DNA from: Candidatus Margulisiibacteriota bacterium
GTDB lineage: Bacteria; Margulisbacteria; Riflemargulisbacteria; GWF2-39-127
Length of the DNA: 64,000 bases
Assembly: GCA_003242895.1 (NCBI GenBank)
Contig: QKMY01000004.1
Coordinates: forward strand, 1 to 64,000
Direction: 5' to 3'
Positions 6,713 through 59,597 of this stretch are shown one piece after another (position 1 is the first letter of the stretch; each line of letters starts with the position of its first letter). Made by a program: the position numbers and the translations under genes. The notes beneath the pieces were generated by a model. The model did not search any database and had not been told where the DNA came from. It worked only from the letters and a program-made list of their open reading frames with translations.

Positions 6713-7303
6713 TTTGCTGTTATTTCTTTTTTTGATGTTACACTACAGGTTGTATCTTCCGGTCAATTATAGATAAATATTAGGAATATAGGATTAATAG
6801 CGATTAATACAAACTAAAATATTATTTTCTTTCCATTCTCTAGATTTTTGGAAATTAAAAAAGAAGTTTAGGGTATTACGATAAGAAAGCAAAATTAAGA
6901 TATTTTATTTTGATATAAGATCAAGCATACCGCAATTCGCACAGCTTTTTCCTGATAAAAAAGGTGTGTGTTATGACGGGAGCGGTGAGCCAATTATAAA
7001 TCCGCAAGCCACTGAGAGATCGGTAGTTTTTTTGGATGTACTCCAAAGATGGGGGAATCCTGAATAACGCGACATAATATTCTAACCCACAATATATAGT
7101 TATTAAAGTTTCGGCTCTTCTTGAGAGCATCTCCATTTAAGTTCGACAAATCCGATTTTCCAATTAGTTAAAATGTGTTATTGTTAGGACCATATTTTAA
7201 AAAGTATTAGCTACTTCAATCCCGACGCTACGGAGCTTTTTATCCAACCCGTAACAAAAAAAGCAGGATTGTTTTTTAATATCGCATTTTATAAAGGAAT
7301 TTT
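6713..7303. other. Intergenic region with one copy of a dispersed repeat
   Basis: The 590 bp between the intron and the next gene hold the 67-bp repeat copy at 6925-6991. A 71-codon minus-strand frame here (6921-7136) has no ribosome binding site or recognisable domain and is not called. The region near 7150-7290 is AT-rich and should contain the promoter of the next gene. I see no RNA gene. Confidence 0.4.
6925..6991. repeat. 67-bp dispersed repeat, copy A
   Basis: This segment aligns without gaps to 9220-9286 over 67 bp, with 12 mismatches by eye. The best conserved core is GGTGTGTGTTATG, and a shared AATTCGC lies near the start. Both copies are intergenic. Confidence 0.6.
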
Positions 7304-7987
7304 ATGAAAAAAATATTGAAAACCCTCTCATTGGCGATACTTTTTATGCCTCTTCTTGTCATTTCCTCGAGTGCGTCAGATCAGGGATGGTTCTTTTTTA
7401 ATGGAGCCGACATCGCGACTGTCTATAGTAAGCCCTATTCAAAATCCGATGACCAGCCCTATGGCATAAATTCCCACTGCACCTTCGCGGAATTCGCATT
7501 GGGCAGCGGCACTGTTCACGGAAGTCTTAAATGTGTAGAGCTATTAGGGGGACCCGTTGCCCTTTTTGTTCCTTATCTATACATTGATATCTATCAGGAG
7601 ACAGGAACAGAAAGACGATTTGATGGAGGCGGAAGTTCTTATTCATCAAATACTGGTTATATTAATTATTATGGCGGTTCCGGGTGGCATAACACGACTG
7701 TCTTAGAACAGCATGCATTTTTATTTGCCGGATCTTCTGTCCTGAGTGTTTTTAATTTAATTACAGATAGTTTAAATCCGGCCCCTCAGTATATAAACTA
7801 TGGAGTAGAATACTTTTGGAACCGCATCCCCTTTACCATTCTGACCGGAAGTCTACGTCTGGGTGGGGTCACATATCTACCCCGGACTATTAAAGCCGAT
7901 GTTTTAAACACATACCAATCTGCCGGTCAAACCTCTTTCTATATTGGTCTTTCTGTGGGAATCCTCGCCGATTGGTCTGGGCTTTAG
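7304..7987 (+). CDS. Secreted protein of unknown function, possible outer-membrane protein
   Basis: A 227-residue protein begins with a clear signal peptide (hydrophobic LSLAILFMPLLVI, likely cleavage after SSSAS near residue 25). The mature part is rich in Gly, Ser, Tyr and alternating hydrophobic residues, with a GGGSSYSS...YYGGSG loop near 110-130 and an aromatic-rich C-terminal half, compatible with a small beta-barrel or extracellular beta protein. I do not recognise the family. AAAGGAA precedes the ATG, and a terminator follows the stop immediately, so it is a single-gene unit. Confidence 0.7.
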   Translation: MKKILKTLSLAILFMPLLVISSSASDQGWFFFNGADIATVYSKPYSKSDDQPYGINSHCTFAEFALGSGTVHGSLKCVELLGGPVALFVPYLYIDIYQETGTERRFDGGGSSYSSNTGYINYYGGSGWHNTTVLEQHAFLFAGSSVLSVFNLITDSLNPAPQYINYGVEYFWNRIPFTILTGSLRLGGVTYLPRTIKADVLNTYQSAGQTSFYIGLSVGILADWSGL

Positions 7988-7989
7988 GC

Positions 7990-8013
7990 GCCTACATTCG
8001 AGTGGGCTTTTTT
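7990..8013 (+). terminator. Intrinsic terminator
   Basis: GCCTAC (7990-7995) pairs with GTGGGC (8002-8007), including one GT pair, around a 6-nt loop, and six T residues follow. It starts 3 nt after the stop codon of the secreted protein. Confidence 0.75.
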
Positions 8014-8144
8014 ATTGGTGATAAAATTTGCATAATCGAAGGATGAAGACTCACTAATGTGTGGGAATCAAAAACAGGATCAGGCATAAACCCTGGCAAC
8101 CTCATGCACTCCTTCCTTGTTTATAAATATTTAATAGCAAATAA

Positions 8145-9035
8145 TCATCCCTCGTATGCTTTTTTCAAGCTTTCAATGTCAAATTTTTTCATTTTAAGGA
8201 ATGCTTCTGTTACTCGGGCCAGTTTACCCCTGTCAGTGTCCTTGAACATCTCCCTCATTAGGGTAGGAACAATCTGCCAGGAGAGACCATATTTGTCCTT
8301 TAGCCACCCGCACTGCTCCGCCTCTGGGACAGCGGAGAGCTTTTCCCAATAATAATCAATTTCTTCCTGGGTATCACAGTTCACAATGAATGAAATGGCT
8401 TCATTAAAAGTAAAATTGTGCTCATAAGCACTGTCCATAGCTGCAAACTCCTGCCCCTCAAGGATGAATGAGGCGTGCTTAACAGTCCCTTCTTTGTCAG
8501 GTTCTTCACCTTTACCGTACCGGTCAATATCGCCAACTTCTGCATTGTGGAACACCGAGGTATAGAAATTGATTGCCTCTTCTGCTTTCCCGTATTGCTC
8601 ACCGACAAACATAATTGTTGGGGTAATCTTTTGTTTTATCTTACGCTCCCCCGCAAACATTATCTGCCAGGAAAGGCCATACTTATCTTGAATCCATCCA
8701 TATTTTTCGCTGAAGGGATACTCGGCAAGCTCCATGAGTGCTGTGCCTCCTTCTATGAGTTTTTCCCAGAGGTTATTAACTTCATCTTTCGTCTTGCATG
8801 CAATAAGCAAGGATACAGACGGATTAAATGTAAAGTACGGTCCTGCATTGATAAGCATAAATTCCTGCCCCGCAAGATCAATGGTGATAATATCCACCGT
8901 GCCCGAAGGAGTATCATTCATCACTATAGAGCTTTTAATCCGTGAGTTCTCGAATAGGGATGTGTAGAATACGGCTGCCTCTTTAGCTTCTTTGTCGAAC
9001 CATAAATGGGGAGTGATCGGTAGCTTTTTTGTCAT
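8145..9035 (-). CDS. VOC-superfamily (PhnB-like) protein with two tandem domains
   Basis: The 296-residue protein contains two similar halves of the PhnB/3-dmu-9_3-mt branch of the vicinal-oxygen-chelate superfamily. The first runs from PHLWFDKEAKEAAVFY to about residue 130; the second starts at about 138 with PTIMFVGEQYGKAEEAINFY. Each half ends in the repeated signature W(I/L)(Q/K)DKYGLSWQI. Such proteins are cytoplasmic; most members have no assigned reaction and some act in resistance or small-molecule modification. The C-terminal 40 residues are the helical tail common in this family (MREMFKDTDRGKLARV). A GGAGAAGG ribosome site precedes the ATG. It stands alone, with no metabolic neighbour to suggest a substrate. 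Confidence 0.88.
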   Translation of the reverse strand: MTKKLPITPHLWFDKEAKEAAVFYTSLFENSRIKSSIVMNDTPSGTVDIITIDLAGQEFMLINAGPYFTFNPSVSLLIACKTKDEVNNLWEKLIEGGTALMELAEYPFSEKYGWIQDKYGLSWQIMFAGERKIKQKITPTIMFVGEQYGKAEEAINFYTSVFHNAEVGDIDRYGKGEEPDKEGTVKHASFILEGQEFAAMDSAYEHNFTFNEAISFIVNCDTQEEIDYYWEKLSAVPEAEQCGWLKDKYGLSWQIVPTLMREMFKDTDRGKLARVTEAFLKMKKFDIESLKKAYEG

Positions 9036-9598
9036 TTTCCTTCTCCTCGTATAATCGGGCCTTGATGCCCGTAAATATCTTTTTTGTTATTATTGGTAAC
9101 TAAATAGTTAACGTTCTCCTGATTTCTAATCAGAGACATCTTAGCAGCTATTGCTGATTCATCAAGGATTAGAGTGCCGGCAGGATATCGGTGCTTATTC
9201 TTTTGCATTATGTCATTAGGCATAACTCAATTCGCTAAGGTTTTCCCTTATTAAAAAGGTGTGTGTTATGCTGGGAGTGGGGAGCCCTTTAAACACTCTG
9301 ACAATTTTGTGATTTTTTCAAGGGTTCCAGGCCAAGAATGAGTAAGGTCTACGCCATCCCAAAAAAAGTTCTTTGATGTAGTGCCCATTTCCCTTCCCGT
9401 TTATTACGGTTAGGTTCGCTTTATGATATTCTGAAACGTGGAGGTCTTCTTCACCTTAAACCAGTACTTATAAGAGGTTCGGAATTTTTATTTCTCCAAA
9501 GCTTTGGGCATGTTATTTTTTTCATTAAATACTGTAAAGTTTACATTGTCTGAATGGAAGTTGCTATAATGTAGAATGTGATAGGTTAGGATTACGTT
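9036..9598. other. Divergent intergenic region with repeat copy B
   Basis: This stretch separates the VOC gene from the surface-protein operon. It holds the second 67-bp repeat copy (9220-9286). A possible promoter for the plus-strand operon is TTTACA (9540-9545) and TATAAT (9565-9570), although the 19-bp spacing is longer than ideal. A 63-codon minus-strand frame that overlaps the VOC start by 4 bp has no recognisable features and is not called. Confidence 0.4.
9220..9286. repeat. 67-bp dispersed repeat, copy B
   Basis: Partner of 6925-6991, about 82 percent identical without gaps. Here the ends read GCATAAC and GTTATGC, an inverted pair about 40 bp apart. The core GGTGTGTGTTATG is identical in both copies. 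Confidence 0.6.
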
Positions 9599-11368
9599 GT
9601 GACAAATAGCCATAAATTATCTTTTTTTCTATCGATTTTTGTTTTGATTGTCCTTACCTCTGCTTGCTTTGGCGAAGAGCAAAGTGGCGGCTATGCGTCT
9701 GATTTCCTGGATTATGGGATTGGAGCCAGGGCCTTGGGTATGGCAAGCGCTGGCCGTTCTTTTAGTGATGACTGTACTGCAGGGTATTGGAATAGTGCTT
9801 TGTTGCCATCAATCGCTACCCCTTCAATATCCTTCATGCGGGCCGACCTCCTGGCGAACTCCAAATACACCCACATCGGAATACTTATCCCTATTTTGGG
9901 TGAAAATGTAGCCTTTAATTACGTCGCAATTAACACAGATGGATTGGAACTGCATACAGGCGACGTGGCCAATTCTACACCTGCCGGATATTTTTCCGAT
10001 GCTAAAAGTGCAATATTTTTAAGTTATGGGAAAGAGATCCTACCCGATATATCAATAGGAACAACGCTTAAGTATGCTTCAAGGAAATTATATATCAGCG
10101 AAGATAACTTGTATGGCGCGGATATAGGATTTCTATGGAAAAAGGATATTTTTGCAATTGCAGCTAATCTGAATAATATCGTTGCATTTACGACTGGGGA
10201 TACTTCTGACAAATACAATATGGATCTGGCCTTCGCAGGTAGTATCTTTCTTGATAACAAATGGTTGCTCGAAATGGATGTTGCCAGAATATTTCGATCA
10301 GCTGGCAATCCCGATGTATATGGCGGACTTGAATATCAATTGCTCCCACATAACGGAGGGTTTGGCCTGAGTCTTAGATGCGGGCTCAATAACATAGAAA
10401 GAACAGTGGGCTTTGGATTATCTGTGTATGGGATGAGCATCGATTATGCCTATGGGTTTGGTACTGTAGAAAACTTGTCCCGGTTATCAGTTAAAATGAG
10501 TTATGATCCTTCCTGGGTTCACGGTGCTACAGGAACTGCGCATACGAAAGTAGCCCCCATCGCACAGGTCAACGTTGAGACGGAGACAGAATGTGCTGCT
10601 GTCCCATCGGTTAACCTTGCTTCTGCAACGCAGGTACCAGCGTTGTTACCCGCCACAGATAGTATAACCATTCCGTCTATGCCAGAAAGTGCTCCGGCCC
10701 TTCCTGAAAACAGGAATTCATTGCCCCGTACGGCCCTTGATGATGCAATCGATATTAAACTATTAACAGGATATCCTGATAATACACTTAGACCAAACAA
10801 GCTAATCACCAAAGAAGAATGCTTAATCGTAGTCCATAGACTGGTAAGGATGGTTACAGGTACAAATCCGGAACAAATCATGGCACTTCCGGTCAGCAGC
10901 AAAGATGAATATGTAAAAATCTCCGAACTTAAGGATATATTGAGTTTCTACGGGCTCGACATTTCGGTTGAACAGCCACTGATGAGCTGCCAGATACCGC
11001 AGAAAGAGCTCGGTTACAATACCGGCCGGTTTAGGAGACAGGTGGGGGAATTTCAGCAGCATTATATGTCGGATAAACCGCAGACGTTCTGGTTAGATAC
11101 CGATACAAAAAAGGCTATCAGTCAAGCATTTAAACAGACAGAATATTTTAATGCTCTTCCGGATAATGAGAAAGCCGACAAAACCTATAATCAGTATGCC
11201 GAAGCAGTTTATACCGGTCTCAATGAATTTAATTACGAGATATACCTGGCAGAAAACATGCTAAACAGGATTATGATGACGAACAATAGCGATATGGTGA
11301 TTTCCAGAATCGAATTAAGTAATCTTCTCATTGGCTATTTAAAGAAAAAAGGTCAATTTAATAGATGA
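9599..11368 (+). CDS. PorV/PorQ-family outer-membrane barrel with SLH-like C-terminal segment
   Basis: The 589-residue protein starts at GTG with a signal peptide ending near residue 26 (hydrophobic FLSIFVLIVLTSACFG). Residues about 30-305 match the PorV/PorQ (UPF0164) barrel family: the opening FLDYGIGARALGMASAG and AGYWNSALLPSI are characteristic, followed by alternating beta strands. PorV proteins in type IX secretion carry cargo with a C-terminal signal to the cell surface. After a Pro/Ser/Ala/Thr-rich linker, residues about 378-415 contain GYPDNTLRPNKLITKEE, which closely follows an S-layer homology motif that normally contacts the cell wall. The last 150 residues are of unknown fold. 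The stop overlaps the next gene by ATGA, so the two are translationally coupled. Confidence 0.8.
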   Translation: MTNSHKLSFFLSIFVLIVLTSACFGEEQSGGYASDFLDYGIGARALGMASAGRSFSDDCTAGYWNSALLPSIATPSISFMRADLLANSKYTHIGILIPILGENVAFNYVAINTDGLELHTGDVANSTPAGYFSDAKSAIFLSYGKEILPDISIGTTLKYASRKLYISEDNLYGADIGFLWKKDIFAIAANLNNIVAFTTGDTSDKYNMDLAFAGSIFLDNKWLLEMDVARIFRSAGNPDVYGGLEYQLLPHNGGFGLSLRCGLNNIERTVGFGLSVYGMSIDYAYGFGTVENLSRLSVKMSYDPSWVHGATGTAHTKVAPIAQVNVETETECAAVPSVNLASATQVPALLPATDSITIPSMPESAPALPENRNSLPRTALDDAIDIKLLTGYPDNTLRPNKLITKEECLIVVHRLVRMVTGTNPEQIMALPVSSKDEYVKISELKDILSFYGLDISVEQPLMSCQIPQKELGYNTGRFRRQVGEFQQHYMSDKPQTFWLDTDTKKAISQAFKQTEYFNALPDNEKADKTYNQYAEAVYTGLNEFNYEIYLAENMLNRIMMTNNSDMVISRIELSNLLIGYLKKKGQFNR

Positions 11369-13320
11369 AAAATAATATTATAATCGCCTTATTTTTAACG
11401 ATCAGCTTTGTGTTATCCGGCCCGGGATTTTCTCAAATGAATTCGGGGCGTTATCAGATTGACTGTTATTCTGATCTGGGACAGAGCATAACGTCCAATT
11501 CCAATACATATACAGCTATCAATACTACTAACAAAAGTTATATCGGAAGCGGCCGTCTTAATATTAGCGCAAATAACACCTGGAAAATCGAAGACCCGGC
11601 AGCCCTTTTCATCTACGAGTCTAGTCCCGGAGCTCCGGGAATAGCAGATTTAATTTTTTCTTCTTCTAATATAGCCCTTGGTGACAGTATTTATATTGAT
11701 ATGTCACTTAGTGAACCATTGAGATCATGGGATATCGCTATAAACGGTGTAACGGCAAATTTTAGTTATAATAATAAACATCTCTTAATAGAGTATCAAC
11801 CGCAGGGTTTTGCTACACAAATTGAGTTTGGCGGAAGTTTTGAAGACGTAAAAGGAACCTGGACTCAACTCAGTTCGGCGCATAACCTGGTGGTTGATTC
11901 TCCCACGGGATCAGTGCAGTTAGATGACGCTCCTGGTCAGGTAGTCGGAGAGGTATATCCCGGATCATCAAGTGAGCCTGCCATTTATTTTAGCTCCGAA
12001 TCATCCGGCAAAGATAAACTATTCCAGTTGGCAGATGTTCGGATAAATATTTCACCTTGGCTGTCAATTTTTAAAGAAATTTCGTTATATCAAGGTGATA
12101 ACAAACTCGGTTTTGTGTTAAATCCGGCGACTAACAATCTGAGCATTATTGCCACAACACAAAGTATGCTTGATGAAACGACTGTGACCTACTCCGTAAG
12201 ATACAGCTTGAAGGACGATGCTAGTTTAGGCGCTGCTTTTTCTTTTGATCTGATCTCTTTTGTATCATCAACGATATCTGGCAATATCGGCACAATTAAT
12301 ACACTAGCAGATATAAAGAGTATTACCTTTAATGTCATATCCAAAGAGGTTCCGATTATTGTTACCCAACAGGTAGACGCATATGTCGGGTCCGTAGATC
12401 TGCCAGTGTTCATGGAACATGAAGAAGTAACTGCAAATGTGATCCAGAAATTGCAGTATCGTCTTTTTGATGTGAGCAGCAATACATATTCTGCCTGGTT
12501 AGATACCGCTTATGCCTCGCTGCTCAGAGGACAGGAAGGCGTGTTTATCCTCCCTGAGGTAAATGGACTTGCTGTATCGCATAACCATATGTATCAGCTG
12601 GAGTTGGTCCTGGTCGGGGATCAAGCAAGCCATATCTCAACTACCAACAGATTTTTGGTTGATCTCACCCCGCCGGTAATTCCGCCGACCATGAATATAA
12701 TTGGAAACGGGATCGTTGGAACCTCGGCTTTGAGAACGAAAGCAAGTGCAGGGATATCGTTGTTAATTTACCCGGATCAATTGCTTGATCCGGAAAGCGG
12801 CATCAAAACGTATGAAGTATATGCCCAGACTAACAACAATCCTACATGGTTACTTGTGGGTAGCGGGAATGTCGTTAGTGCCAATCAGGTCACGCTTTCA
12901 GCCAGCGTAAGTGATCAGAGCAAATATTACTATAAATACCGAGTGCAGGATAAGGCTAAACATTGGTCGCAGTTCAGCGCGGTTACTTCTTTTGTCCCTG
13001 CGGCGATTTCAGGCAATACCGAGATTATTGGGACTCTCTTTAATCATCCTAATCCCTTTGACAGCCGCAAGCAGAAAACCACGATCTATTATAACTTGAA
13101 CGAAGCTTGTGACATCAATATTAAGATATATGATATTTTCGGCAGAGTTGTTTATATGTCCAATACCTATAACAGAGATAACGGAGACTTTGAGTGGACA
13201 GGCGAGAACATGGCCGGAGATAAAGTCAGCAAGGGTGTATATCTGCTGATATTTGAAGCCAGGAGTCTGGCAACCGGCACTAAAAAAACAAAAAAATATA
13301 AGATAGGCGTTATTCATTAA
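11365..13320 (+). CDS. Surface protein with T9SS/FlgD-like C-terminal domain
   Basis: A 651-residue exported protein with signal peptide (IIIALFLTISFVLSG, cleavage near residue 23). The body is beta-rich, with Ig/fibronectin-like stretches such as DLTPPVIPPT near residue 433. The last 95 residues, from NHPNPFDSRKQKTTIYY through IKIYDIFGRVV to the closing KGVYLLIFEA and KKTKKYKIGVIH, form the FlgD-Ig-like/T9SS type A sorting domain found on cargo of type IX secretion. It overlaps the PorV-like gene by 4 bp and precedes the fibre gene by 18 bp. A reasonable inference is that it is displayed or secreted with help from its PorV-like neighbour, although no other T9SS gene is in view. Confidence 0.8.
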   Translation: MKNNIIIALFLTISFVLSGPGFSQMNSGRYQIDCYSDLGQSITSNSNTYTAINTTNKSYIGSGRLNISANNTWKIEDPAALFIYESSPGAPGIADLIFSSSNIALGDSIYIDMSLSEPLRSWDIAINGVTANFSYNNKHLLIEYQPQGFATQIEFGGSFEDVKGTWTQLSSAHNLVVDSPTGSVQLDDAPGQVVGEVYPGSSSEPAIYFSSESSGKDKLFQLADVRINISPWLSIFKEISLYQGDNKLGFVLNPATNNLSIIATTQSMLDETTVTYSVRYSLKDDASLGAAFSFDLISFVSSTISGNIGTINTLADIKSITFNVISKEVPIIVTQQVDAYVGSVDLPVFMEHEEVTANVIQKLQYRLFDVSSNTYSAWLDTAYASLLRGQEGVFILPEVNGLAVSHNHMYQLELVLVGDQASHISTTNRFLVDLTPPVIPPTMNIIGNGIVGTSALRTKASAGISLLIYPDQLLDPESGIKTYEVYAQTNNNPTWLLVGSGNVVSANQVTLSASVSDQSKYYYKYRVQDKAKHWSQFSAVTSFVPAAISGNTEIIGTLFNHPNPFDSRKQKTTIYYNLNEACDINIKIYDIFGRVVYMSNTYNRDNGDFEWTGENMAGDKVSKGVYLLIFEARSLATGTKKTKKYKIGVIH

Positions 13321-52307: not shown

Positions 52308-52334
52308 AAAGAAAACTCTAGAAACAACGAAAGG

Positions 52335-52363
52335 GCGATATGGATTCATATCGCTTTTTTTTT
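52335..52363 (+). terminator. Strong intrinsic terminator behind pfp
   Basis: GCGATAT (52335-52341) pairs with ATATCGC (52348-52354) around a 6-nt loop, followed by nine T residues. It separates pfp from the following operon. Confidence 0.92.
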
Positions 52364-52389: not shown

Positions 52390-52439
52390 TTGAATTATTC
52401 AAACAATAATGTTATATTCGAATATAGCATTATTGTTTG
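52390..52439 (+). promoter_or_regulatory. Promoter embedded in a 40-bp palindrome, candidate ArsR-family operator
   Basis: CAAACAATAATG (52400-52411) and CATTATTGTTTG (52428-52439) are perfect 12-bp arms around a centre that is itself palindromic (TATATTCGAATATA). A sigma70-type promoter, TTGAAT (52390-52395) and TATATT (52413-52418) with 17-bp spacing, overlaps the palindrome. A repressor bound there would block the promoter, and an ArsR-family repressor is encoded in the operon. GTTTTTT follows the palindrome, so an alternative reading is a terminator. Confidence 0.6.
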
Positions 52440-52514
52440 GTTTTTTACATGCGTAATTTAGCGATGAATAAAGAGTGTCTCGAGGATTCTTGTCTATTTT
52501 GGAAAGAGTAATAT

Positions 52515-53123
52515 ATGAGCGATTTTATTCGAAATCGGTATACGTCTAAAGTAAGTTCAGCAAATTTAGGGTGTGCAAATTTGCTACCCTATCTTCACGT
52601 GAAAACTGGAAATTACGTCTTGGACCTCGGATGCGGCAGCGGAGGGACAGTTTTTGCTATAGCTCCGCAGGTAGGTTCGACTGGACGTATTTATGGATTA
52701 GATCTAACATCCGGCATGATTGAAGCGGCGATAGCCAGGAATAATTATCAGAATGTTTTTTTCCATATCGGCGATATTCATTCCTTGCCTTTTGAAAATG
52801 CTCTTTTTGATACGGTACTAAGCAACTGTGTCATCAACCATTCTCAAGACAAAGCAACGGTATTCAGCGAGATTTTTAGAGTGCTGAAACCTGATGGATG
52901 TTTTATGATCGGAGACGTAATGGCGGTTGGGAAGCTTCCTGAAGAAATCGCAAATAATTCTTGTAATGTTGCTGCTTGCTGGGGGGGAGCTATTCCGAAA
53001 GATGAATATTTTTGTATGATAAAGGCACAAGGATTTTGTAAAATAGAACAATTAAGCTCTCGGTTCTATCAAAAAGAAAATTATCCGATGGAGAGCATAA
53101 TCGTGAAAGGGGTAAAATCATGA
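52515..53123 (+). CDS. ArsM-like SAM-dependent methyltransferase
   Basis: The 202-residue protein has a class I methyltransferase fold: DLGCGSGG (37-44), IYGLDLTSGMIEAA (59-72), HIGDIHSLPFENALFD (84-99) and VLKPDGCFMIGD (123-134). Two features match arsenite methyltransferases of the ArsM/AS3MT type rather than general enzymes: Cys105 in SNCVINHS and Cys155 in CWGGAI, the positions of the As(III)-binding cysteines in that family. It is shorter than typical ArsM (about 260 residues or more). As first gene of the operon with an ArsR regulator and thioredoxin partners, an arsenic or other thiol-linked substrate is plausible. The stop overlaps the start of the small Cys-rich peptide by ATGA, implying translational coupling. 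Confidence 0.82.
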   Translation: MSDFIRNRYTSKVSSANLGCANLLPYLHVKTGNYVLDLGCGSGGTVFAIAPQVGSTGRIYGLDLTSGMIEAAIARNNYQNVFFHIGDIHSLPFENALFDTVLSNCVINHSQDKATVFSEIFRVLKPDGCFMIGDVMAVGKLPEEIANNSCNVAACWGGAIPKDEYFCMIKAQGFCKIEQLSSRFYQKENYPMESIIVKGVKS

Positions 53124-53239
53124 AAAAAATCACAAACGTTAATATTAAAGCCAAGAAGTCTTCTTGTGGCTGTGCAACGAAAAAGGTAGCACAATGCTGC
53201 GCTAAACAATCAAAGTTAGTAGCGGGATGTCACGACTAA
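53120..53239 (+). CDS. 39-residue Cys-rich peptide, candidate RiPP precursor
   Basis: The ORF starts at an ATG overlapping the methyltransferase stop (ATGA), with AAAGGGG 7 nt upstream, and ends at TAA 53237-53239, 12 bp before the radical SAM gene. The first 13 residues are leader-like and basic (MKKITNVNIKAKK). The rest is a core-like segment with five cysteines at 16, 18, 26, 27 and 37 (CGC, CC and a C-terminal GCHD). There is no acidic or hydrophobic part that would suggest a normal folded protein. Position directly before a radical SAM/SPASM enzyme is the usual arrangement of a ribosomally made, post-translationally modified peptide. It could alternatively be a small metal-binding protein. 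Confidence 0.75.
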   Translation: MKKITNVNIKAKKSSCGCATKKVAQCCAKQSKLVAGCHD

Positions 53240-53251
53240 AAAGGTAAGAAA

Positions 53252-54616
53252 ATGATTAAAGCAAAAAATAATTTGATCACCGAAATAGATGCTGATCATT
53301 ACGCGATCTATAATCCTCTTTCAGGAGCGTTTGATATAGCTTCGAAGGAAGAGCTGGACCGTTTTGTGTCGGGTATCCCTTGTGACGAGCACGAGCGGCA
53401 ACTGTGGCTTGAACGGGGATATTGTTTTGATTCGGACGAAGAAGCACGAGAGTATACTTCTCAGCGCTACAATGATTTCTTAGTCGAAAATCGAAAGAAT
53501 ACTGTGCAATTTCTGCTAATACCATCATATGGGTGCAATTTTAACTGTAGCTACTGTTATCAGAAAGGCGTTGAGGCGAGTACTCCTTTGATAAGCATCG
53601 GGATGATTGATTCTTTTATTGATTTTGTTATAAAGTATAGGGAAAAAGAACATAAAGAAGTTGTTGTCACCCTTTTTGGAGGGGAACCGCTGTTGCCGGG
53701 AGAGAATAATCGCAATATGTTGTCGCACTTGATTACCGCACTTGCAAGAGAGTCCATCAGATTATCAGTTGTAACTAATGGCTACTACCTGTCAGAATAT
53801 ATGAACATCCTGTCACACGCAGATATCCTTGAGGTCCACGTTAGTCTGGATGGAGACGAAGACTTTCATAATGAAAGGCGGCGGACAAAAGACGGTAAAG
53901 ATAGTTTTTCTAAGATTATGCAGGGGATTGATGCTGCAGTTCAGCAAGGGTTCCCTATCAATATAAGGATGATTGTCGATAAACTAAATATTTCAAGTTT
54001 GCCGGGACTTGCAGCTAAATTCGCACAACGAGGGTATCTTGGGCTGCCTAAAGAAAAGTTTAAGTCGACATTGGGTAGGAACTATGAGTTGATTAATGAG
54101 TATCGTAATGCGAAAGACCTATTTGGGTTAACTGAAATGTTTGAAGAATATGTTAAATTGATGATCGAGTATCCATTACTGGAAAAACTATACGTTCCTG
54201 AGTTTTTTGGCATTACAGCTATGATGAACAATAAAGAAATGTATATTCCCAATTTTGATACATGTCCTGCAGCCAAGTCCGAATACGTTTTTGACTGTGC
54301 GGGCACTATCTATGGATGTACGGCAAGTTGTGGGCAAAAAGGCTATGAACTGGGGACCTATTACCCTGTCGTTGCCTGGAACGAACCGGAGTTAAACCTT
54401 TGGAGGTCAAGATCTGTCCTGACGATCGAAAAGTGCAGAGACTGTGTTGTTGACGTTGTTTGTGGCGGCGGCTGCGGCGTCTTGGCAAAAGAGAAAAATG
54501 GCTCGATCAACGCACCTCTATGTAAGCCGGTGAAAGAGGTTATGGATATCGGTATTCGCTATTACAAAGACGAATTATTAAGAAGCGGCGCTCAATGTTG
54601 CGTTGCCGGAACTTAA
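53252..54616 (+). CDS. Radical SAM/SPASM peptide-maturase-type enzyme
   Basis: A 454-residue enzyme. Residues 1-80 (HYAIYNPLSGAFDIASKEE) form the N-terminal part common in SPASM peptide maturases. The radical SAM cluster motif is CNFNCSYC (Cys95, 99 and 102), followed by TLFGGEPLL, VVTNGYYL and HVSLDGDEDFHN. The C-terminal SPASM region has many cysteines (about 338, 349, 356, 360, 395, 398, 404, 408 and 424), enough for two auxiliary [4Fe-4S] clusters, and the protein ends with a CC pair. Such enzymes form thioether or carbon-carbon links in small peptides. The Cys-rich peptide encoded 12 bp upstream is the obvious substrate candidate. It is not a close match by eye to the named maturase subfamilies I know. 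Confidence 0.88.
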   Translation: MIKAKNNLITEIDADHYAIYNPLSGAFDIASKEELDRFVSGIPCDEHERQLWLERGYCFDSDEEAREYTSQRYNDFLVENRKNTVQFLLIPSYGCNFNCSYCYQKGVEASTPLISIGMIDSFIDFVIKYREKEHKEVVVTLFGGEPLLPGENNRNMLSHLITALARESIRLSVVTNGYYLSEYMNILSHADILEVHVSLDGDEDFHNERRRTKDGKDSFSKIMQGIDAAVQQGFPINIRMIVDKLNISSLPGLAAKFAQRGYLGLPKEKFKSTLGRNYELINEYRNAKDLFGLTEMFEEYVKLMIEYPLLEKLYVPEFFGITAMMNNKEMYIPNFDTCPAAKSEYVFDCAGTIYGCTASCGQKGYELGTYYPVVAWNEPELNLWRSRSVLTIEKCRDCVVDVVCGGGCGVLAKEKNGSINAPLCKPVKEVMDIGIRYYKDELLRSGAQCCVAGT

Positions 54617-54650
54617 AGGTAATATAGTTAATAAAGGCGGGTGTTAAATT

Positions 54651-55964
54651 ATGATCAAAGAGATTTCCGAAAAAGATTATGATGAGCTGGTATTCTGTTC
54701 GAAAGGCCCGGTTATTGTAGATTTTTATTCTACTGAATGCCCCCCTTGTGAAGCTCTGGCACCTAAATTCCAGTTTTTTGCTGAAAAATATGTTAACGAG
54801 ATTAAGTTTTACAAAATATTCCGGCAAGGTAATAGAGACCTCTCACGGCAGTTAGGAGTTAAAGGCAGCCCGACAATTCTATTTTATAATAATGGAGAAG
54901 AACTCGGAAAGAGATTGTCTGGCGCGATAAAAAAGAGTGAGATTAACTCCAGCATTCTAAATCTTTATGGCCTGCAGGATAAAAGCCAAGGCATTAAAAG
55001 AGAAGAACTGCACTGTAATGTTGCGATTATCGGAGCCGGACCTGCCGGACTCACGGCCGCTTTATATGCTGCAAATGCAAAATTAAGCACAGTAGTTATC
55101 GATAAAGGAAATACCGGAGGAACTGTTAATATAACGCATTCGGTAAGTAACTACCCAGGGACTGGAAGTTCAATGCAGGGATTCATGCTAATGCATAACA
55201 TGACTGAACAGGTGAAAGCATTTCAGGCTACCATTATGACAGCCGTCGACATTACCGGTATTAATTTGAATGATAAAATAATATATATTGATGACGATAA
55301 AGTAATTCGTGCGGATTCTATCATCCTGGACACTGGGTCGAACCCTAGACCGCTTAATATTCCTGGCGAGAAAGAGTTCTCGGGAAAAGGGATCTCGTAT
55401 TGCGCGACCTGCGATGGGAGTTTTTATGAAGGGAAGAACGTTTTTGTTGTTGGAGGGGGTAATTCTGCAATTGAAGAAGCATTGTATTTGGCCAGATTTG
55501 TTAATAAGCTGACGGTGATACACCAGTTTGACGAGTTTCAAGCTAATAAAGTGGCAGTCGATGAGCTTCTGTCGCATCCGAAGATTAGTGTTTTATGGTC
55601 TCATGAGCCGCGGGCCTTTCTCGGAAATGCCTCTTACGAGCGGGTAGAAGTTGAAGACCTTAAAACCGGAAAAAAGCGAATTCTTGATGATGCCGAAGGT
55701 GTTTTTGTTTTTGTTGGGTATGTCCCGCAAACGGATTTGTTTAAGAATACTCTTGCCTTAGATAACTATGGATATGTGTTTTCGTCTGAACACATGGAAA
55801 CAAATATTCCAGGTGTTTTCGTAGCCGGAGATGTGAGGCAAAAACGATATCGGCAGATTACCACTGCAGTAAGTGATGGGACGATAGCCGCACTTGCAGC
55901 GGGTGAATATCTGAAACAGTTATCAAGGTCCGGGACAAAGGATCTAATCAAGGTAGTGAGGTAG
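54651..55964 (+). CDS. trxB: Thioredoxin-thioredoxin reductase fusion protein
   Basis: The 437-residue protein joins an N-terminal thioredoxin-like domain (1-110, active site CPPC at 30-33 in STECPPCEALAP) to a thioredoxin reductase (about 120-437). The reductase has FAD motif AIIGAGPAGLTAALYA, redox-active CATC (251-254) in GISYCATCDGSFY, pyridine-nucleotide motif VGGGNSAIEEALYLA and the final FAD motif VFVAGDVRQKRYRQI. After the nucleotide motif the usual NADPH-selecting HRRxxFR is changed to HQFDEF, so the cosubstrate may not be NADPH. The order is reversed from the known mycobacterial TrxR-Trx fusion. It would deliver electrons to the operon's chemistry, such as keeping the Cys-rich peptide or methyltransferase cysteines reduced. 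Confidence 0.9.
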   Translation: MIKEISEKDYDELVFCSKGPVIVDFYSTECPPCEALAPKFQFFAEKYVNEIKFYKIFRQGNRDLSRQLGVKGSPTILFYNNGEELGKRLSGAIKKSEINSSILNLYGLQDKSQGIKREELHCNVAIIGAGPAGLTAALYAANAKLSTVVIDKGNTGGTVNITHSVSNYPGTGSSMQGFMLMHNMTEQVKAFQATIMTAVDITGINLNDKIIYIDDDKVIRADSIILDTGSNPRPLNIPGEKEFSGKGISYCATCDGSFYEGKNVFVVGGGNSAIEEALYLARFVNKLTVIHQFDEFQANKVAVDELLSHPKISVLWSHEPRAFLGNASYERVEVEDLKTGKKRILDDAEGVFVFVGYVPQTDLFKNTLALDNYGYVFSSEHMETNIPGVFVAGDVRQKRYRQITTAVSDGTIAALAAGEYLKQLSRSGTKDLIKVVR

Positions 55965-55971
55965 TATTGTT

Positions 55972-56244
55972 ATGGAGCATAATTTTGAAGAGCAGGCAAA
56001 TATTTTGAAGGCGCTAGGCCATCCGACACGGTTACGGATTGTGAAAGGAATTTGCGAGAATGGCTGTAATGTGAGCCGCATGGTTGAAGGGCTCGGAATG
56101 CCGCAAGCAACAGTATCACAGCATCTGGGAGTATTACGGGCGAGTGGTATAATAAAGGGAGAAAAAAGGGGATTGGAGATCTGTTACCGGATAATAAATG
56201 AGAAGGTTAAAAAAATCCTTGAGGTGATGGCCTCTGATAGTTAA
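55972..56244 (+). CDS. ArsR-family transcriptional regulator
   Basis: The 90-residue protein is a winged-helix ArsR/SmtB repressor: ILKALGHPTRLRIVKGI (11-27), the recognition helix QATVSQHLGVLRASGII (45-61), and the wing KGEKRGLEICYRI. Cys28 and Cys32 lie in the helix that in ArsR holds the metalloid-binding cysteines, though not in the classical ELCVCDL form, so the inducer may be arsenic, another thiophilic ion or a redox signal. The gene starts 7 bp after the fusion reductase and lies in the middle of the operon, so it probably autoregulates via the palindrome at 52400-52439. Confidence 0.9.
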   Translation: MEHNFEEQANILKALGHPTRLRIVKGICENGCNVSRMVEGLGMPQATVSQHLGVLRASGIIKGEKRGLEICYRIINEKVKKILEVMASDS

Positions 56245-56307
56245 GAAAATAACGTAAAAGGACCGAAGTATTGTCGGTTAATTTTAATAAGCAGGAAGGA
56301 GATATTT

Positions 56308-56631
56308 ATGAGCGTTATACAAGTAACAGATGCAACATTCGAGCAGGAGGTCCTCAAATCGGATAAACCTGTTATGGTTGATTTCTGGGCTCCATGGTGC
56401 GGTCCGTGTAGAATGATTGCTCCGGTAGTTGAGGGTATTGCAAATGAATACGAAGCCAAGCTGAAAGCTGCAAAACTCAATACTGATGACAACAGCACTA
56501 CTGCTGCAGAATATGGCATAACCGGCATTCCGTGCCTTGTATTCTTCAAAGACGGGAAAGAAGTTGAGCGGCTTGTTGGATTTTTGCCAAAAGAGCATAT
56601 TGAAAAGAAGGTTCAAAACATTATTGGCTAA
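56308..56631 (+). CDS. trxA: Thioredoxin
   Basis: A 107-residue canonical thioredoxin with [13 protein letters not shown] (active-site CGPC), the cis-Pro segment [12 protein letters not shown], in which an extra Cys precedes the strand, and the C-terminal helix. It reduces protein disulfides in the cytoplasm. It has a good AGGAAGGAG ribosome site and sits between the ArsR regulator and a zinc-ribbon gene in the same direction. ArsM-type enzymes use thioredoxin as reductant, which fits the operon. Confidence 0.96.
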
Positions 56632-56736
56632 TCTCCCAATTATCGAAAATTTTGACCGAAAAGTTCTGCCGGATGATATTTTCTCGCAGGAGTGTGCTTT
56701 TTCTATGTATTTTAAGAATAATAAAGGAGTTCTCTT

Positions 56737-56958
56737 ATGCCTTCGTTTGACTATAAATGTAATGAATGCGGTCATGGGTTTGAAGTTTATACTGCTACTC
56801 TGGCTACAGAAAAAAACACTGATTGTCCGCATTGCAGCGGCAAAGATACCAGAAAGATATTTCATGCGCTAAATATCGGTTCGGTTTCAAAAGGCAATGA
56901 TTTCCCGGCTCCGGATAAGTGCGAGTCATGTTGCCATGGAGGAATGTGCGGGCATTAA
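56737..56958 (+). CDS. FmdB-family zinc-ribbon protein
   Basis: A 73-residue protein that begins with the FmdB/CxxC putative regulatory signature: PSFDYKCNECGHGFEV, a second CPHCSGKDTRKIF pair, and a tail rich in Cys and His (CESCCHGGMCGH). The first two pairs make a zinc ribbon; the tail could hold another metal or be reactive thiols. FmdB proteins are small and of uncertain function. AAAGGAG precedes the ATG, and the stop lies 24 bp before the next reductase gene. Confidence 0.88.
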   Translation: MPSFDYKCNECGHGFEVYTATLATEKNTDCPHCSGKDTRKIFHALNIGSVSKGNDFPAPDKCESCCHGGMCGH

Positions 56959-56981
56959 AATATCAAAAACTGGAGTGGGCC

Positions 56982-57896
56982 ATGATCGAAGATAAAACGA
57001 CAGACGTTTTAATAATAGGTGCCGGACCGGCTGGGCTCTCGGCTGCTATCTATACTGCCCGCGCAAATAGGAAGACAGTAGTTCTGCGCGGAAAGGCGAA
57101 ATCAAGATTAGAACAGGCACATTTGATTGAGAATTATCCAGGTGTCATGTCAATCAAGGGAACTGAGCTTCTTTTGCAGTTTGAGGAACAAGCCCGGCAT
57201 TTTGGTGTGGAAATTATTGAAACGGACGCAATCGATCTTGGATTAGGCTTTGCCCCCAAGATGATAAATACCCGTAGCGGAATGATTATCGCTGATACCG
57301 TAATTCTTGCTATGGGAAAAGGAAGCAGTAAGGTTGCCATTGAAAATGAAGAAGACTATATCGGACTTGGGGTTTCTTACTGTGTTGTTTGTGATGGTGC
57401 TTTATATAAGAATAAAGTAACTGTCGTCTATGGCAATGATAATGATTCATTTGAGGATGCGTTGATGCTTGAACAATTAGGTTGTAAGGTAACGCTCATT
57501 GTCTCGGGAAAAGAGGCTCAGTACAATAGCGAACTTATTGCGAAAATAAAGAGCAAAGACATTCCTTGTATAAATGAAGCGCGGGTTACGAAGGTTATCG
57601 GTGAAAATGTTCTGACAGGGATTGAATATGAGAAAGCAAGTGAAAAGTCGGTGTTACCGGCAAATGCTCTGTTTATCATCACACATGGCCCTGGTTCGAC
57701 ATTGCTTAAGCGCGCTGGACTAGAGATTGATGCGACAAATTGTATAGAGGTTAACCGGAGTCAGGAGACGAACCTGCAAGGGGTCTTTGCAGCCGGTGAT
57801 ATTATTTGTGGCGGAATGCAAATTGCTACTGCTGTTGGCGATGGTGTCAACGCAGCGCTCAGCTGTCTCCGATATTTGCGGGCAAAAAAAACGTAA
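56982..57896 (+). CDS. Thioredoxin reductase-like flavoprotein lacking the NADPH motif
   Basis: From the ATG at 56982 (304 residues; the upstream in-frame extension overlaps the zinc-ribbon gene and is rejected). The FAD motif LIIGAGPAGLSAAIYTAR is intact and the redox pair is CVVC (134-137) in SYCVVCDGALY. Where normal enzymes have GxGxxA, this one has YGNDNDSFEDAL (150-161), and the HRRxxxR segment is also gone. Loss of both elements is known from ferredoxin-dependent flavin thioredoxin reductases of clostridia and from related oddities, so ferredoxin or another protein may be the donor. It closes the operon. Confidence 0.85.
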   Translation: MIEDKTTDVLIIGAGPAGLSAAIYTARANRKTVVLRGKAKSRLEQAHLIENYPGVMSIKGTELLLQFEEQARHFGVEIIETDAIDLGLGFAPKMINTRSGMIIADTVILAMGKGSSKVAIENEEDYIGLGVSYCVVCDGALYKNKVTVVYGNDNDSFEDALMLEQLGCKVTLIVSGKEAQYNSELIAKIKSKDIPCINEARVTKVIGENVLTGIEYEKASEKSVLPANALFIITHGPGSTLLKRAGLEIDATNCIEVNRSQETNLQGVFAAGDIICGGMQIATAVGDGVNAALSCLRYLRAKKT

Positions 57897-58037: not shown

Positions 58038-59597
58038 ATGGCCGAGATCAAGTGTGAAAATGATTTAATCCCTTATATCATAGGCGATTCGATGATTTTT
58101 AACCTGGACAATAATCTCGTACAGATTGGTCCTATTTCTGTAAAAGATTTATCTATACATGACCTGGAAGTGCCAGAAAATATCATTTTTCGCCCGAATG
58201 ATTACTTGACCATTGAGTTCAATTTTTTTCATCTTTTTTTTATTCATAAAAAACGCCTAAACGTATATGCACTTAAAGACCAGATTGTAAAATTAAAAAA
58301 AATTATGCAAATATCTCTTTTTGCTGGTAAAAAGGATTGGGCCGCTGAGTTGTTGTATCGTGATATCAATACGTTAAACGACGAAGATAAACAGTTTTTA
58401 ATGGTGTATATCCAGAATTACCTCGCAGGGAAGATCGGACATTCTGATATTTTGAATAAGCTGGGAGAATGCTTTCAACGATTTCCCGAATCTCTTCAGG
58501 AAACATTTCGATTGTTTTTGAACCAGGAGTTGGCTAAGAGGGCTTTCGCGATATTTAAGAATAATGATCTCATTTCGGAAGTTGAAGATTTTGATTGCGA
58601 TAGTCTGTGCTTTATTGAATATCAGGAAGGGAAAGATATTTGTCTGTTGAATCATTCAATTAATATAACCGGAGATACAATGATGATATCGAATCCTACA
58701 AAGGTATTGTACCAGGGCGACCGGAAAGTACGCTTTCCGACCACGCTGTTATTGACCCGGTTTAAACCGCAAATGGTCACTGCGTTAGTGGCACAGTTTC
58801 GATATAAATTAATTGAGAATGGCATCGCTCAAATCGGCAGTGGTGATGGCATGGCCTATACCCCGAACCAGGATACCTCTTGTACATTGATCAGGCAAAA
58901 CGGGAATACATTTCTTCTTGATGCTTCAGTTCAGAGTATCCTTAAATCGGCGTACCTTGGGGTTAACGTCTATGAAGATGACATCGTTGCTCTGTTAACT
59001 CACGGATGTCATGGTGATCACGGTGCCGGTTTGTATTTTATTGCTAAAATAAGAACTTTTTTAAATATAAACAATAAGTTAAAGATATTCTGCCATCCGA
59101 TTGTCCTGGATAATTATGTTGAAAAGTGTGCCTATGTTTATCAGGTTGAGTACGAAGGGCAGGATATTGAAAAAGTAAAAGAAGAAATAAGCAGTTTATT
59201 CCAATGTGTAGAGCCTGAAAATGTTGTTATTACACCGTTCAATACTCATTCGGTGCCGACAACAGGGTTTTATTTTTCTTCCATTAATTTTTATGTTACC
59301 GGAGACATGAGCGGGGCAGAATTGGAGAGAAACAAAGTGATCAAAGAAAGTAACATTGATATAACGAAATTTTATTTGGAAAAAGATCTGCAGCAATTTG
59401 ACAAAATCAAACAATTTGTTGTTGACCAGGGCTTTATTGCTATGGAATGCGGGCAGCCTCCGATCCATATTCCAAAAGATCTTATTATAGATATTCTTGG
59501 CGGTGAAGACAATTTAATCAATAAGATTAACGAAAATAAGCTGTTTCTCTACCATACAAGTGGACAGAAAGATGCAAGTGAGTGGGTCGTCTGTTAG
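58038..59597 (+). CDS. Metallo-beta-lactamase-like protein with unusual metal motif
   Basis: A 519-residue protein. Residues 1-220 are of unknown fold with mostly helical character around 85-180. Residues about 225-519 show metallo-beta-lactamase features: DTSCTLIRQNGNTFLLDAS, LLTHGCHGDHGAGLYFI, FNTHSVPTTGFYF, FYVTGDMSG and GQPPIHIP. The key motif is spaced HxxHxDH instead of HxHxDH, one residue longer. No signal peptide is present. The gene comes 141 bp after the reductase gene and precedes a GGDEF protein on the same strand. Function unknown. Confidence 0.65.
   Translation: MAEIKCENDLIPYIIGDSMIFNLDNNLVQIGPISVKDLSIHDLEVPENIIFRPNDYLTIEFNFFHLFFIHKKRLNVYALKDQIVKLKKIMQISLFAGKKDWAAELLYRDINTLNDEDKQFLMVYIQNYLAGKIGHSDILNKLGECFQRFPESLQETFRLFLNQELAKRAFAIFKNNDLISEVEDFDCDSLCFIEYQEGKDICLLNHSINITGDTMMISNPTKVLYQGDRKVRFPTTLLLTRFKPQMVTALVAQFRYKLIENGIAQIGSGDGMAYTPNQDTSCTLIRQNGNTFLLDASVQSILKSAYLGVNVYEDDIVALLTHGCHGDHGAGLYFIAKIRTFLNINNKLKIFCHPIVLDNYVEKCAYVYQVEYEGQDIEKVKEEISSLFQCVEPENVVITPFNTHSVPTTGFYFSSINFYVTGDMSGAELERNKVIKESNIDITKFYLEKDLQQFDKIKQFVVDQGFIAMECGQPPIHIPKDLIIDILGGEDNLINKINENKLFLYHTSGQKDASEWVVC

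Follow-up and report, generated by a model that had tools for sequence, protein, structure and literature searches.

A conserved gene cassette pairing a cysteine-rich peptide with a radical SAM/SPASM enzyme, an ArsM-like methyltransferase and a thioredoxin-thioredoxin reductase fusion

Introduction

What is the role of a very short, cysteine-rich peptide encoded between a methyltransferase resembling ArsM and an enzyme resembling a peptide maturase? The question is raised by a locus in the window, meaning here the whole 64,000-nucleotide stretch of Candidatus Margulisiibacteriota DNA that was analysed, in which eight genes lie on the + strand at 52515-57896 (Table 1). A preliminary description had listed these eight co-directional genes in this order and had noted the ATGA coupling of the methyltransferase gene to that of a 39-residue peptide with five cysteines; the gene coordinates, with a 4-bp ATGA overlap, agree with it on both points, and its family assignments hold in profile and Pfam searches. 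Both of the thioredoxin reductase-like proteins that it named are present, but the first also carries a thioredoxin domain (CPPC) fused to its N-terminus.

Table 1. Features of the locus and their positions in the window
Feature	Position	Strand	Basis
Palindrome, 20+20 nt, 95% complementary, candidate ArsR operator	52400..52439		inverted-repeat search
ArsM-like SAM methyltransferase, 202 aa	52515..53123	+	Pfam Methyltransf_31; NF008823 below cut-off
Cys-rich precursor peptide MKKITNVNIKAKKSSCGCATKKVAQCCAKQSKLVAGCHD, 39 aa, 5 Cys	53120..53239	+	predicted precursor
Conserved 17-residue C-terminal core VAQCCAKQSKLVAGCHD of the peptide	53186..53236	+	72 distinct homologous peptides
Radical SAM/SPASM enzyme, predicted peptide maturase, 454 aa	53252..54616	+	Pfam PF04055
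Thioredoxin (CPPC)-thioredoxin reductase (CATC) fusion, 437 aa	54651..55964	+	profile and Pfam matches
ArsR/SmtB-family repressor, 90 aa	55972..56244	+	NF033788, 84.4 bits vs cut-off 55
Thioredoxin, local addition	56308..56631	+	TIGR01068, 131.6 bits vs 96.8
FmdB-family zinc ribbon, Cys-rich tail, local addition	56737..56958	+	TIGR02605, 51.8 bits vs 31.3
Second thioredoxin reductase-like flavoprotein (CVVC)	56979..57896	+	TIGR01292, 248 bits vs cut-off 343

Results

Only the first four of the eight genes, encoding the methyltransferase, the peptide, the radical SAM enzyme and the thioredoxin-thioredoxin reductase (Trx-TrxR) fusion, are widely conserved, and the ArsR repressor, the FmdB zinc ribbon and the separate thioredoxin are local additions to this cassette. 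A weak terminator-like hairpin lies between the ArsR and thioredoxin genes (56261-56279). The second thioredoxin reductase-like flavoprotein is common to Margulisbacteria relatives, and its homologues adjoin the cassette in genomes G001, G002 and G006.

The peptide has homologues of 31-39 residues and is present as a single copy in the genome. Across 72 distinct homologous peptides the last 17 residues follow the fixed spacing x-A-Q-C-C-A-K-x-S-x4-G-C-H-D-COOH, with A, C, C, K, G, C, H and D invariant; the codons for the invariant residues vary synonymously among the homologues. Conservation thus includes the non-cysteine residues A, Q, K, G, H and D, and it extends to the leader. Neither the peptide nor the radical SAM subfamily scored above the cut-off of any library family, which leaves the peptide family nameless in the libraries searched, and the cassette looks undescribed: no account of the core motif or the system was found in a literature search that included the closest surveys and covered few subscription journals.

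Many unrelated anaerobic bacteria share the cassette, which was found in 80 relatives belonging to at least seven phyla (Bacteroidota, Spirochaetota, Margulisbacteria, Bacillota, Myxococcota, Ignavibacteriota and Acidobacteriota), with the same gene order in 58 of the 80 loci. That the block is kept in many phyla indicates that the arrangement is more than chance. Besides the window, the peptide is present in 77 of the 80 loci, so that the database check proposed in the preliminary description, a search for peptide and radical SAM genes as neighbours in other genomes, came out in its favour. In two Marinamargulisbacteria (G002 and G006) the peptide is unlinked and yet retained elsewhere in the genome, in a version with cysteine and not selenocysteine, which explains two cassettes that have no adjacent peptide, and in three genomes without a close radical SAM homologue (G003, G005 and G020) the peptide is absent. 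Among 295 genomes of one Bacteroidota order, 33 carry both genes, 259 carry neither and three are mismatched (33/1/2/259; Fisher p 3.5e-40), with 0 matches to a control pattern. The distances of the methyltransferase, the radical SAM enzyme and the Trx-TrxR fusion covary (r 0.85-0.91), and cysteines of the fusion are conserved in 55-56 of 56 sequences. Several Bacteroidales have no adjacent Trx-TrxR gene, and the step assigned to this protein is therefore not universal in that form.

The preliminary description had named one finding as fatal to its proposal, namely that homologous radical SAM genes never neighbour a cysteine-rich small ORF; the 77 loci, the genome-wide co-inheritance and the retention of unlinked peptides show the opposite. 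These comparisons of sequence support the view that the radical SAM gene has a dedicated partner in the peptide, and a short ribosomal precursor co-inherited with a predicted modifying enzyme is one trait that the cassette shares with RiPP systems. A viral origin was considered and rejected, as none of 2.9 million viral contigs matched the core pattern and the radical SAM matches there were distant. Spread by plasmids was rejected likewise, the one match being a distant radical SAM protein (25%) in Rhodococcus, where the cassette is absent.

The radical SAM enzyme carries CxxxCxxC at 95/99/102 and seven SPASM cysteines (C338, C356, C395, C398, C404, C408 and C424) that are invariant in 75 of 75 sequences. 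In its AF2 model (pLDDT 93.4), residues 1-81 form three strands and three helices (bbb-aaa) in an RRE-like arrangement, and the nearest fold is that of CteB (5WHY/5WGG), whose match covers this region. The RRE-like N-terminus and the SPASM region agree with its earlier assignment to the peptide-maturase type. CteB likewise has seven SPASM cysteines, and it forms Cys-Thr thioethers (PMC10352776). The cassette resembles the SCIFF/ranthipeptide systems (CteA/CteB, TIGR03974; PapA/PapB, NF047865) in its RRE-like N-terminus, radical SAM domain and seven-Cys SPASM, in the gene of a small Cys-rich predicted substrate adjoining the enzyme, and in having CteB as the nearest solved structure. However, the enzyme falls below the membership score of both families (83.5 bits vs a cut-off of 425 for TIGR03974, 124 vs 340 for NF047865), the peptide has neither six cysteines in 45 residues nor CX3D repeats, and the cassette adds the methyltransferase and Trx-TrxR partners. 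The enzyme is in fact below the cut-off of every NCBIfam radical SAM maturase family listed, including others among its top-scoring profiles, CefB (131/600 bits), TIGR04463 (121/525), Clo7bot (92/600) and geopeptide (87/400), whose precursors are unlike the cassette peptide.

For the methyltransferase, the top PDB matches both by sequence and by fold are arsenite methyltransferases, with a query TM of 0.79-0.87 against CrArsM, AS3MT and CmArsM. Its C20, C105 and C155, invariant in 71 of 71 sequences, align with ArsM Cys72, Cys174 and Cys224, which in CmArsM are the As(III)-binding sites (PMC3877260). The preliminary description was right in calling the protein ArsM-like, but all three cysteine positions are kept rather than two. 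Alike as they are in fold and in these cysteines, the protein differs from ArsM and AS3MT in having 202 residues rather than 320-390 and in lacking the ArsM C-terminal domain, and its substrate may accordingly differ; with 177.4 bits against NF008823 (cut-off 263) it is short of both the curated score and the full length expected of ArsM. The ArsM-type selenoprotein fusions and the DVU_1556 methyltransferase/TrsS radical SAM set (NF041536, NF041537, NF047649, NF045667 and NF045646) also associate ArsM-like methyltransferases with thiol/selenol or radical SAM proteins, but our methyltransferase scores 93-129 bits, below all their cut-offs, and we know of no GCHD peptide in either set.

The palindrome at the start of the predicted operon is the strongest inverted repeat of the window and overlaps a promoter-like site at 52390-52418. 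An ArsR gene adjoins the cassette not only in the window but also in G001 and L116, and the operon of this genome would be turned on through an ArsR-type repressor that acts at the palindrome, as the predicted operator. The palindrome core, TATATTCGAATATA, has no second copy in the 3.35-Mb genome and no comparable palindrome was found upstream of the other cassettes, suggesting that the candidate operator is local. The palindrome could instead be an AT-rich terminator hairpin.

Discussion

We strongly infer that the radical SAM enzyme matures the peptide. What the product does is a more tentative matter, and the reading that we favour, with due reserve, is that a RiPP-like tri-thiol peptide works together with the ArsM-like methyltransferase on a thiophilic metal or metalloid and is reduced by the Trx-TrxR fusion. 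According to this model, the RRE-like N-terminus would bind the MKSL-type leader and the radical SAM/SPASM centre would act on the core A-Q-C-C-A-K-x-S-x4-G-C-H-D at the C-terminus. The likeliest outcome is a C-S (thioether-type) bond or some other change at a carbon atom close to the conserved Cys, His or Asp; of this step we are fairly confident. With less assurance, the mature peptide would serve inside the cell as a tri-thiol/imidazole ligand for a thiophilic element, which by analogy would be arsenite or antimonite, and would hand this element on to the methyltransferase with its three invariant As-binding cysteines. The Trx-TrxR fusion may then reduce the cysteines of the peptide and the methyltransferase after each cycle. 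The analogy for the ligand is ArsD, in which As(III) transfer involves the vicinal Cys12-Cys13 pair and Cys18 (PMC12607644); the peptide, with its own vicinal pair and distal cysteine, may form a similar tri-thiol metalloid site. Yet the peptide has no sequence relation to ArsD above chance (NF047871, E 0.18), and ArsD is a chaperone partnered by the ArsA ATPase, whereas here a 31-39-residue peptide is partnered by a radical SAM enzyme.

A metalloid role of the cassette is plausible. The link drawn in the preliminary description gains from the three invariant ArsM cysteines and the adjoining ArsR genes; the association of the cassette with acr3 (OR 5.2, p 1e-4) is modest and may be ecological. 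We do not regard this association as proving an arsenic role, since it may reflect only a free-living versus a gut lifestyle. Also counted in favour of the metalloid reading were an association of the cassette with DUF1847 (OR 26, p 4e-14) and the likeness of its DUF5714 neighbours to MbdU, a metal-binding selenoprotein. Genes for arsenic efflux or for an arsenate reductase do not recur in the cassette, however, and we are aware of no earlier case in which a RiPP supplies an ArsM.

The main rival is a sulfane-sulfur or thiol-redox role, in which the modified peptide would be a ribosomal low-molecular-weight thiol or persulfide carrier, a redox or sulfane-sulfur cofactor whose role would compare with that of coenzyme A or bacillithiol. 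The methyltransferase would then cap or detoxify sulfide or persulfide, or else methylate the peptide, which Trx-TrxR would reduce. We consider this somewhat unlikely. The unlinked peptides of G002 and G006 lie with rhodanese, DUF5714, a YgaP-like membrane domain, a Trx-TrxR paralogue and DUF1847, in G002 also with a CoA-disulfide reductase/rhodanese/TusA/DsrE-like fusion; that of G097 likewise lies near DsrE-like and Hdr-like genes. A CoADR homologue adjoins the cassette in G007, and rhodanese, YgaP-like and DUF302 genes are recurring neighbours. As DUF1847, DUF5714/MbdU-like and sulfane-sulfur genes recur at other loci, a sulfur role keeps its place beside the metalloid one. However, the methyltransferase retains the three arsenite-binding cysteines without exception, ArsR neighbours occur, and a simple thiol carrier needs no radical chemistry.

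The unlinked peptides in sulfane-sulfur loci were counted against the metalloid reading.

Returning to the metalloid reading, one may speculate further that the methyltransferase has in the modified tri-thiol peptide a dedicated carrier of arsenite or another metalloid, or else a dedicated acceptor, an idea that we regard as unlikely as it stands but worth stating. If this idea is true, a RiPP would stand in for glutathione in the metalloid biochemistry of anaerobic phyla, possibly with an organometalloid peptide as product.

Three further explanations fare less well. The C-terminal residues might give rise to a small PQQ- or mycofactocin-like cofactor for a flavoprotein or the DUF1847/DUF5714 proteins, as the very short single-copy precursor, its near-invariant extreme C-terminus, its wide conservation and the absence of export genes would allow; but no peptidase recurs in the cassette and spacing is conserved over 17 residues rather than two or three, making this quite improbable. 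RRE/SPASM maturases commonly yield secreted RiPPs, and a conventional bacteriocin or metallophore has been weighed on that ground; we hold it very unlikely, with a single-copy core almost invariant across phyla and no transporter or immunity gene recurring beside the cassette. Least credible of all is an unmodified metallothionein-like peptide next to the radical SAM gene by chance, which would suit the cysteines but not the conserved leader and non-cysteine residues or co-inheritance even when unlinked.

The almost fixed core, the spread over seven phyla and the co-inheritance with the maturase are signs of a basic function inside the cell rather than of an antibiotic. Should the ArsM link prove real, RiPP chemistry would be joined with the metabolism of metalloids; should it be the sulfur link instead, the peptide would be a new ribosomal thiol cofactor. 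The cassette is directly testable, since some of its carriers are recorded as strains rather than metagenome bins, namely Thermoanaerobacterium saccharolyticum NTOU1 and Anaeromyxobacter SG22 and SG29.

Gene layout and conservation of the cassette

The open reading frames, gene order and strand of the operon were all correct as first described; the methyltransferase and peptide genes overlap by ATGA, and the gaps downstream of the peptide gene are, in order, 12, 34, 7, 63, 105 and 20 bp. Family searches upheld the calls in the preliminary description of an ArsM-type methyltransferase (in ArsM-like form), a radical SAM/SPASM protein (rSAM) as third gene and an ArsR gene (ArsR/SmtB), which is the fifth. 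The fourth gene had been read as a plain reductase; the thioredoxin reductase part holds, but the protein is a thioredoxin-thioredoxin reductase (Trx-TrxR) fusion.

Scanning a genome collection with a five-sequence rSAM alignment yielded 80 loci from many phyla, with 36-55% identity to the window rSAM. The order methyltransferase, peptide, rSAM, Trx-TrxR (the cassette) occurs in 58 of them, the remainder being truncated or permuted versions, and the same partner genes adjoin rSAM in most loci having enough flanking sequence. The Trx-TrxR gene is missing in some Bacteroidales, several from soda-lake sediment, although the flank is ample; Bacteroidales loci L066, L072, L075, L087, L095 and L106 have methyltransferase-peptide-rSAM or peptide-rSAM with no adjacent Trx-TrxR gene. 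In Anaeromyxobacter and its kin (loci L079, L113, L085, L105, L111) the cassette is permuted, the peptide lying after the rSAM gene or apart from it. Searches of libraries and literature turned up neither the peptide family, nor the rSAM subfamily, nor their partnership with an ArsM-like methyltransferase and a Trx-TrxR fusion; the pairing of an RRE/SPASM maturase with a small Cys peptide is itself of a known kind.

Features in the window and at other loci (L) in genomes (G)
Feature	Location	Position	Strand
Terminator-like inverted repeat	window	52330-52359	
Palindrome	window	52400-52439	
ArsM-like methyltransferase	window	52515-53123	+
Peptide, 39 aa	window	53120-53239	+
Peptide core	window	53186-53236	+
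rSAM	window	53252-54616	+
rSAM residue 283	window	54098-54100	+
Trx-TrxR fusion	window	54651-55964	+
ArsR	window	55972-56244	+
Thioredoxin	window	56308-56631	+
FmdB zinc ribbon	window	56737-56958	+
Second TrxR-like	window	56979-57896	+
519-aa protein	window	58038-59597	
DUF1847 and DUF5714 genes	L043	5010-6265	
Unlinked-peptide locus	L132 (G002:C29)	5947-12665	
DUF1847 and DUF5714 genes	L132	6526-9565	
CPPC thioredoxin fused to the window's second TrxR-like type	L132	7640-8941	
Unlinked core peptide	L145 (G097)	7296-7394	-

The peptide and its co-inheritance with rSAM

In a six-frame search the peptide turned up in 77 of the 80 rSAM loci; the three lacking an adjacent copy are one at a contig edge (L045) and two from Marinamargulisbacteria, where a single copy lies well away from the rSAM gene. 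Most of the 72 distinct peptides have 30-39 residues, and most start with MKSL or MKTL; they vary in the middle and end in a 17-residue core of constant spacing, x-A-[QL]-C-C-[AST]-K-x-[STA]-x4-G-C-H-D-stop. The search pattern demanded CC, K and GCHD and allowed 3-9 residues where the spacing proved constant; that spacing and the remaining core positions are results independent of the pattern, including the A, S and Q of the core (Q in 71/72). A looser scan recovered the same peptides. Since codon choice at the invariant core residues varies freely, selection acts on the protein. The window peptide matched no family in NCBIfam or Pfam, and four homologues matched none in NCBIfam beyond one chance-level ArsD-related family (E 0.18).

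In the 3.35-Mb genome carrying the window, the DNA pattern for the core has exactly one copy. The nearest cassette-bearing relatives are Margulisbacteria, and all five genomes of the same class with a close rSAM have one core-pattern copy; in three further genomes the peptide was found in none, and an rSAM match was absent from two and only distant in the third (G020, same phylum). Among 295 genomes of the order to which locus L062 belongs, the peptide occurs in 34, an rSAM match in 35 and both in 33 (Fisher p 3.5e-40, uncorrected for relatedness of the genomes), and a reversed control pattern gave zero matches. Of the two rSAM-only genomes, one has a fragmentary gene at the end of a contig and the other a distant relative (29%); G097, the one genome with the peptide but no rSAM match, carries it unlinked.

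Pairwise distances of the methyltransferase, rSAM and Trx-TrxR proteins are correlated, with r 0.85-0.91, a level that none of 2000 permutations reached. In the rSAM tree the window protein groups with Spirochaetes and other Margulisbacteria, whereas Margulisbacteria GWF2_35_9 falls within the Bacteroidota-Spirochaetota group. The cassette has likely moved between phyla by transfer.

The enzymes

Residues 1-81 of the high-confidence AlphaFold2 model of the window rSAM (pLDDT 93.4) form three strands and then three helices, the topology of an RRE. CxxxCxxC and seven SPASM cysteines are invariant in 75/75 proteins. By profile and fold, the nearest solved structure is CteB, followed by anaerobic sulfatase maturase, TigE, ChlB and SuiB; CteB, whose product carries Cys-Thr thioethers, likewise has seven SPASM cysteines (PMC10352776). 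Since the window rSAM approached no NCBIfam maturase cut-off, we regard it as a distinct subfamily. Residue 283 is Glu in the window protein and an extra Cys in 68 of 75 homologues.

The methyltransferase (METHYLTRANSFERASE) aligns best with CrArsM, human AS3MT and CmArsM, against which its model scores TM 0.79-0.87 on query length. Its C20, C105 and C155, invariant in 71/71, correspond in the alignment to Cys72, Cys174 and Cys224 of CmArsM, which bind As (PMC3877260). It is nevertheless named ArsM-like rather than ArsM because it is missing the ArsM C-terminal domain and scores under the curated cut-off. In the fusion protein, CPPC of the Trx part and CATC of the TrxR part are both conserved; Bacillus sp. 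CDB3 offers a loose precedent with arsT, a TrxR gene within an arsenic operon (PMC12607644).

Proposed function and neighbours

We infer with good support that the rSAM enzyme matures the peptide. The mature product is likely an intracellular ligand or carrier rather than an exported antibiotic, because there is no recurring transporter, a single copy and a near-invariant core. Our best guess, a tentative one, is that its cargo is a metalloid used by the methyltransferase; acr3 is associated with the peptide only modestly (OR 5.2, p 1e-4). A somewhat less likely alternative is a sulfane-sulfur or thiol-redox role, the former being conceivable because the unlinked peptide of G002, one of the two Marinamargulisbacteria, sits among genes for rhodanese, DUF5714 and what we take, from sequence similarity and general knowledge, to be YgaP-like and DUF1847 proteins and a CoADR/rhodanese/TusA/DsrE-like fusion. 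DUF1847 and DUF5714 were confirmed there by further search.

Recurring neighbours of the cassette are DUF1847, DUF5714 (MbdU-like), thioredoxins, DUF302, DUF6132, YgaP-like membrane domains and MarR/ArsR regulators; one gene run in genome G001 includes ArsR, TrxR-like, DUF1847, DUF5714 and the whole cassette. DUF1847 is strongly associated with the peptide (OR 26, p 4e-14). We consider DUF1847 and DUF5714 accessories because the window genome lacks DUF5714 and, away from the operon, carries no more than a short DUF1847-like fragment. Both are Cys-rich and uncharacterised, accompany the cassette across phyla and had no mention in the literature searched. In G097, where no rSAM partner was detected, the unlinked peptide lies near DsrE-like, HdrC-like, peroxiredoxin, Fur-type and TrxR genes.

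Regulation and flanking genes

The palindrome upstream of the operon is the window's strongest inverted repeat and overlaps a promoter-like site, and its core is present nowhere else in the genome; it could be the ArsR operator. T residues follow it, and it could alternatively be a terminator hairpin, but the upstream gene is already followed by a terminator-like inverted repeat with a T run.

The 519-aa protein downstream of the operon gave a weak RNase Z-like match (metallo-beta-lactamase type) and none in Pfam. The FmdB zinc ribbon ends in the tail CESCCHGGMCGH, possibly a metal site itself.
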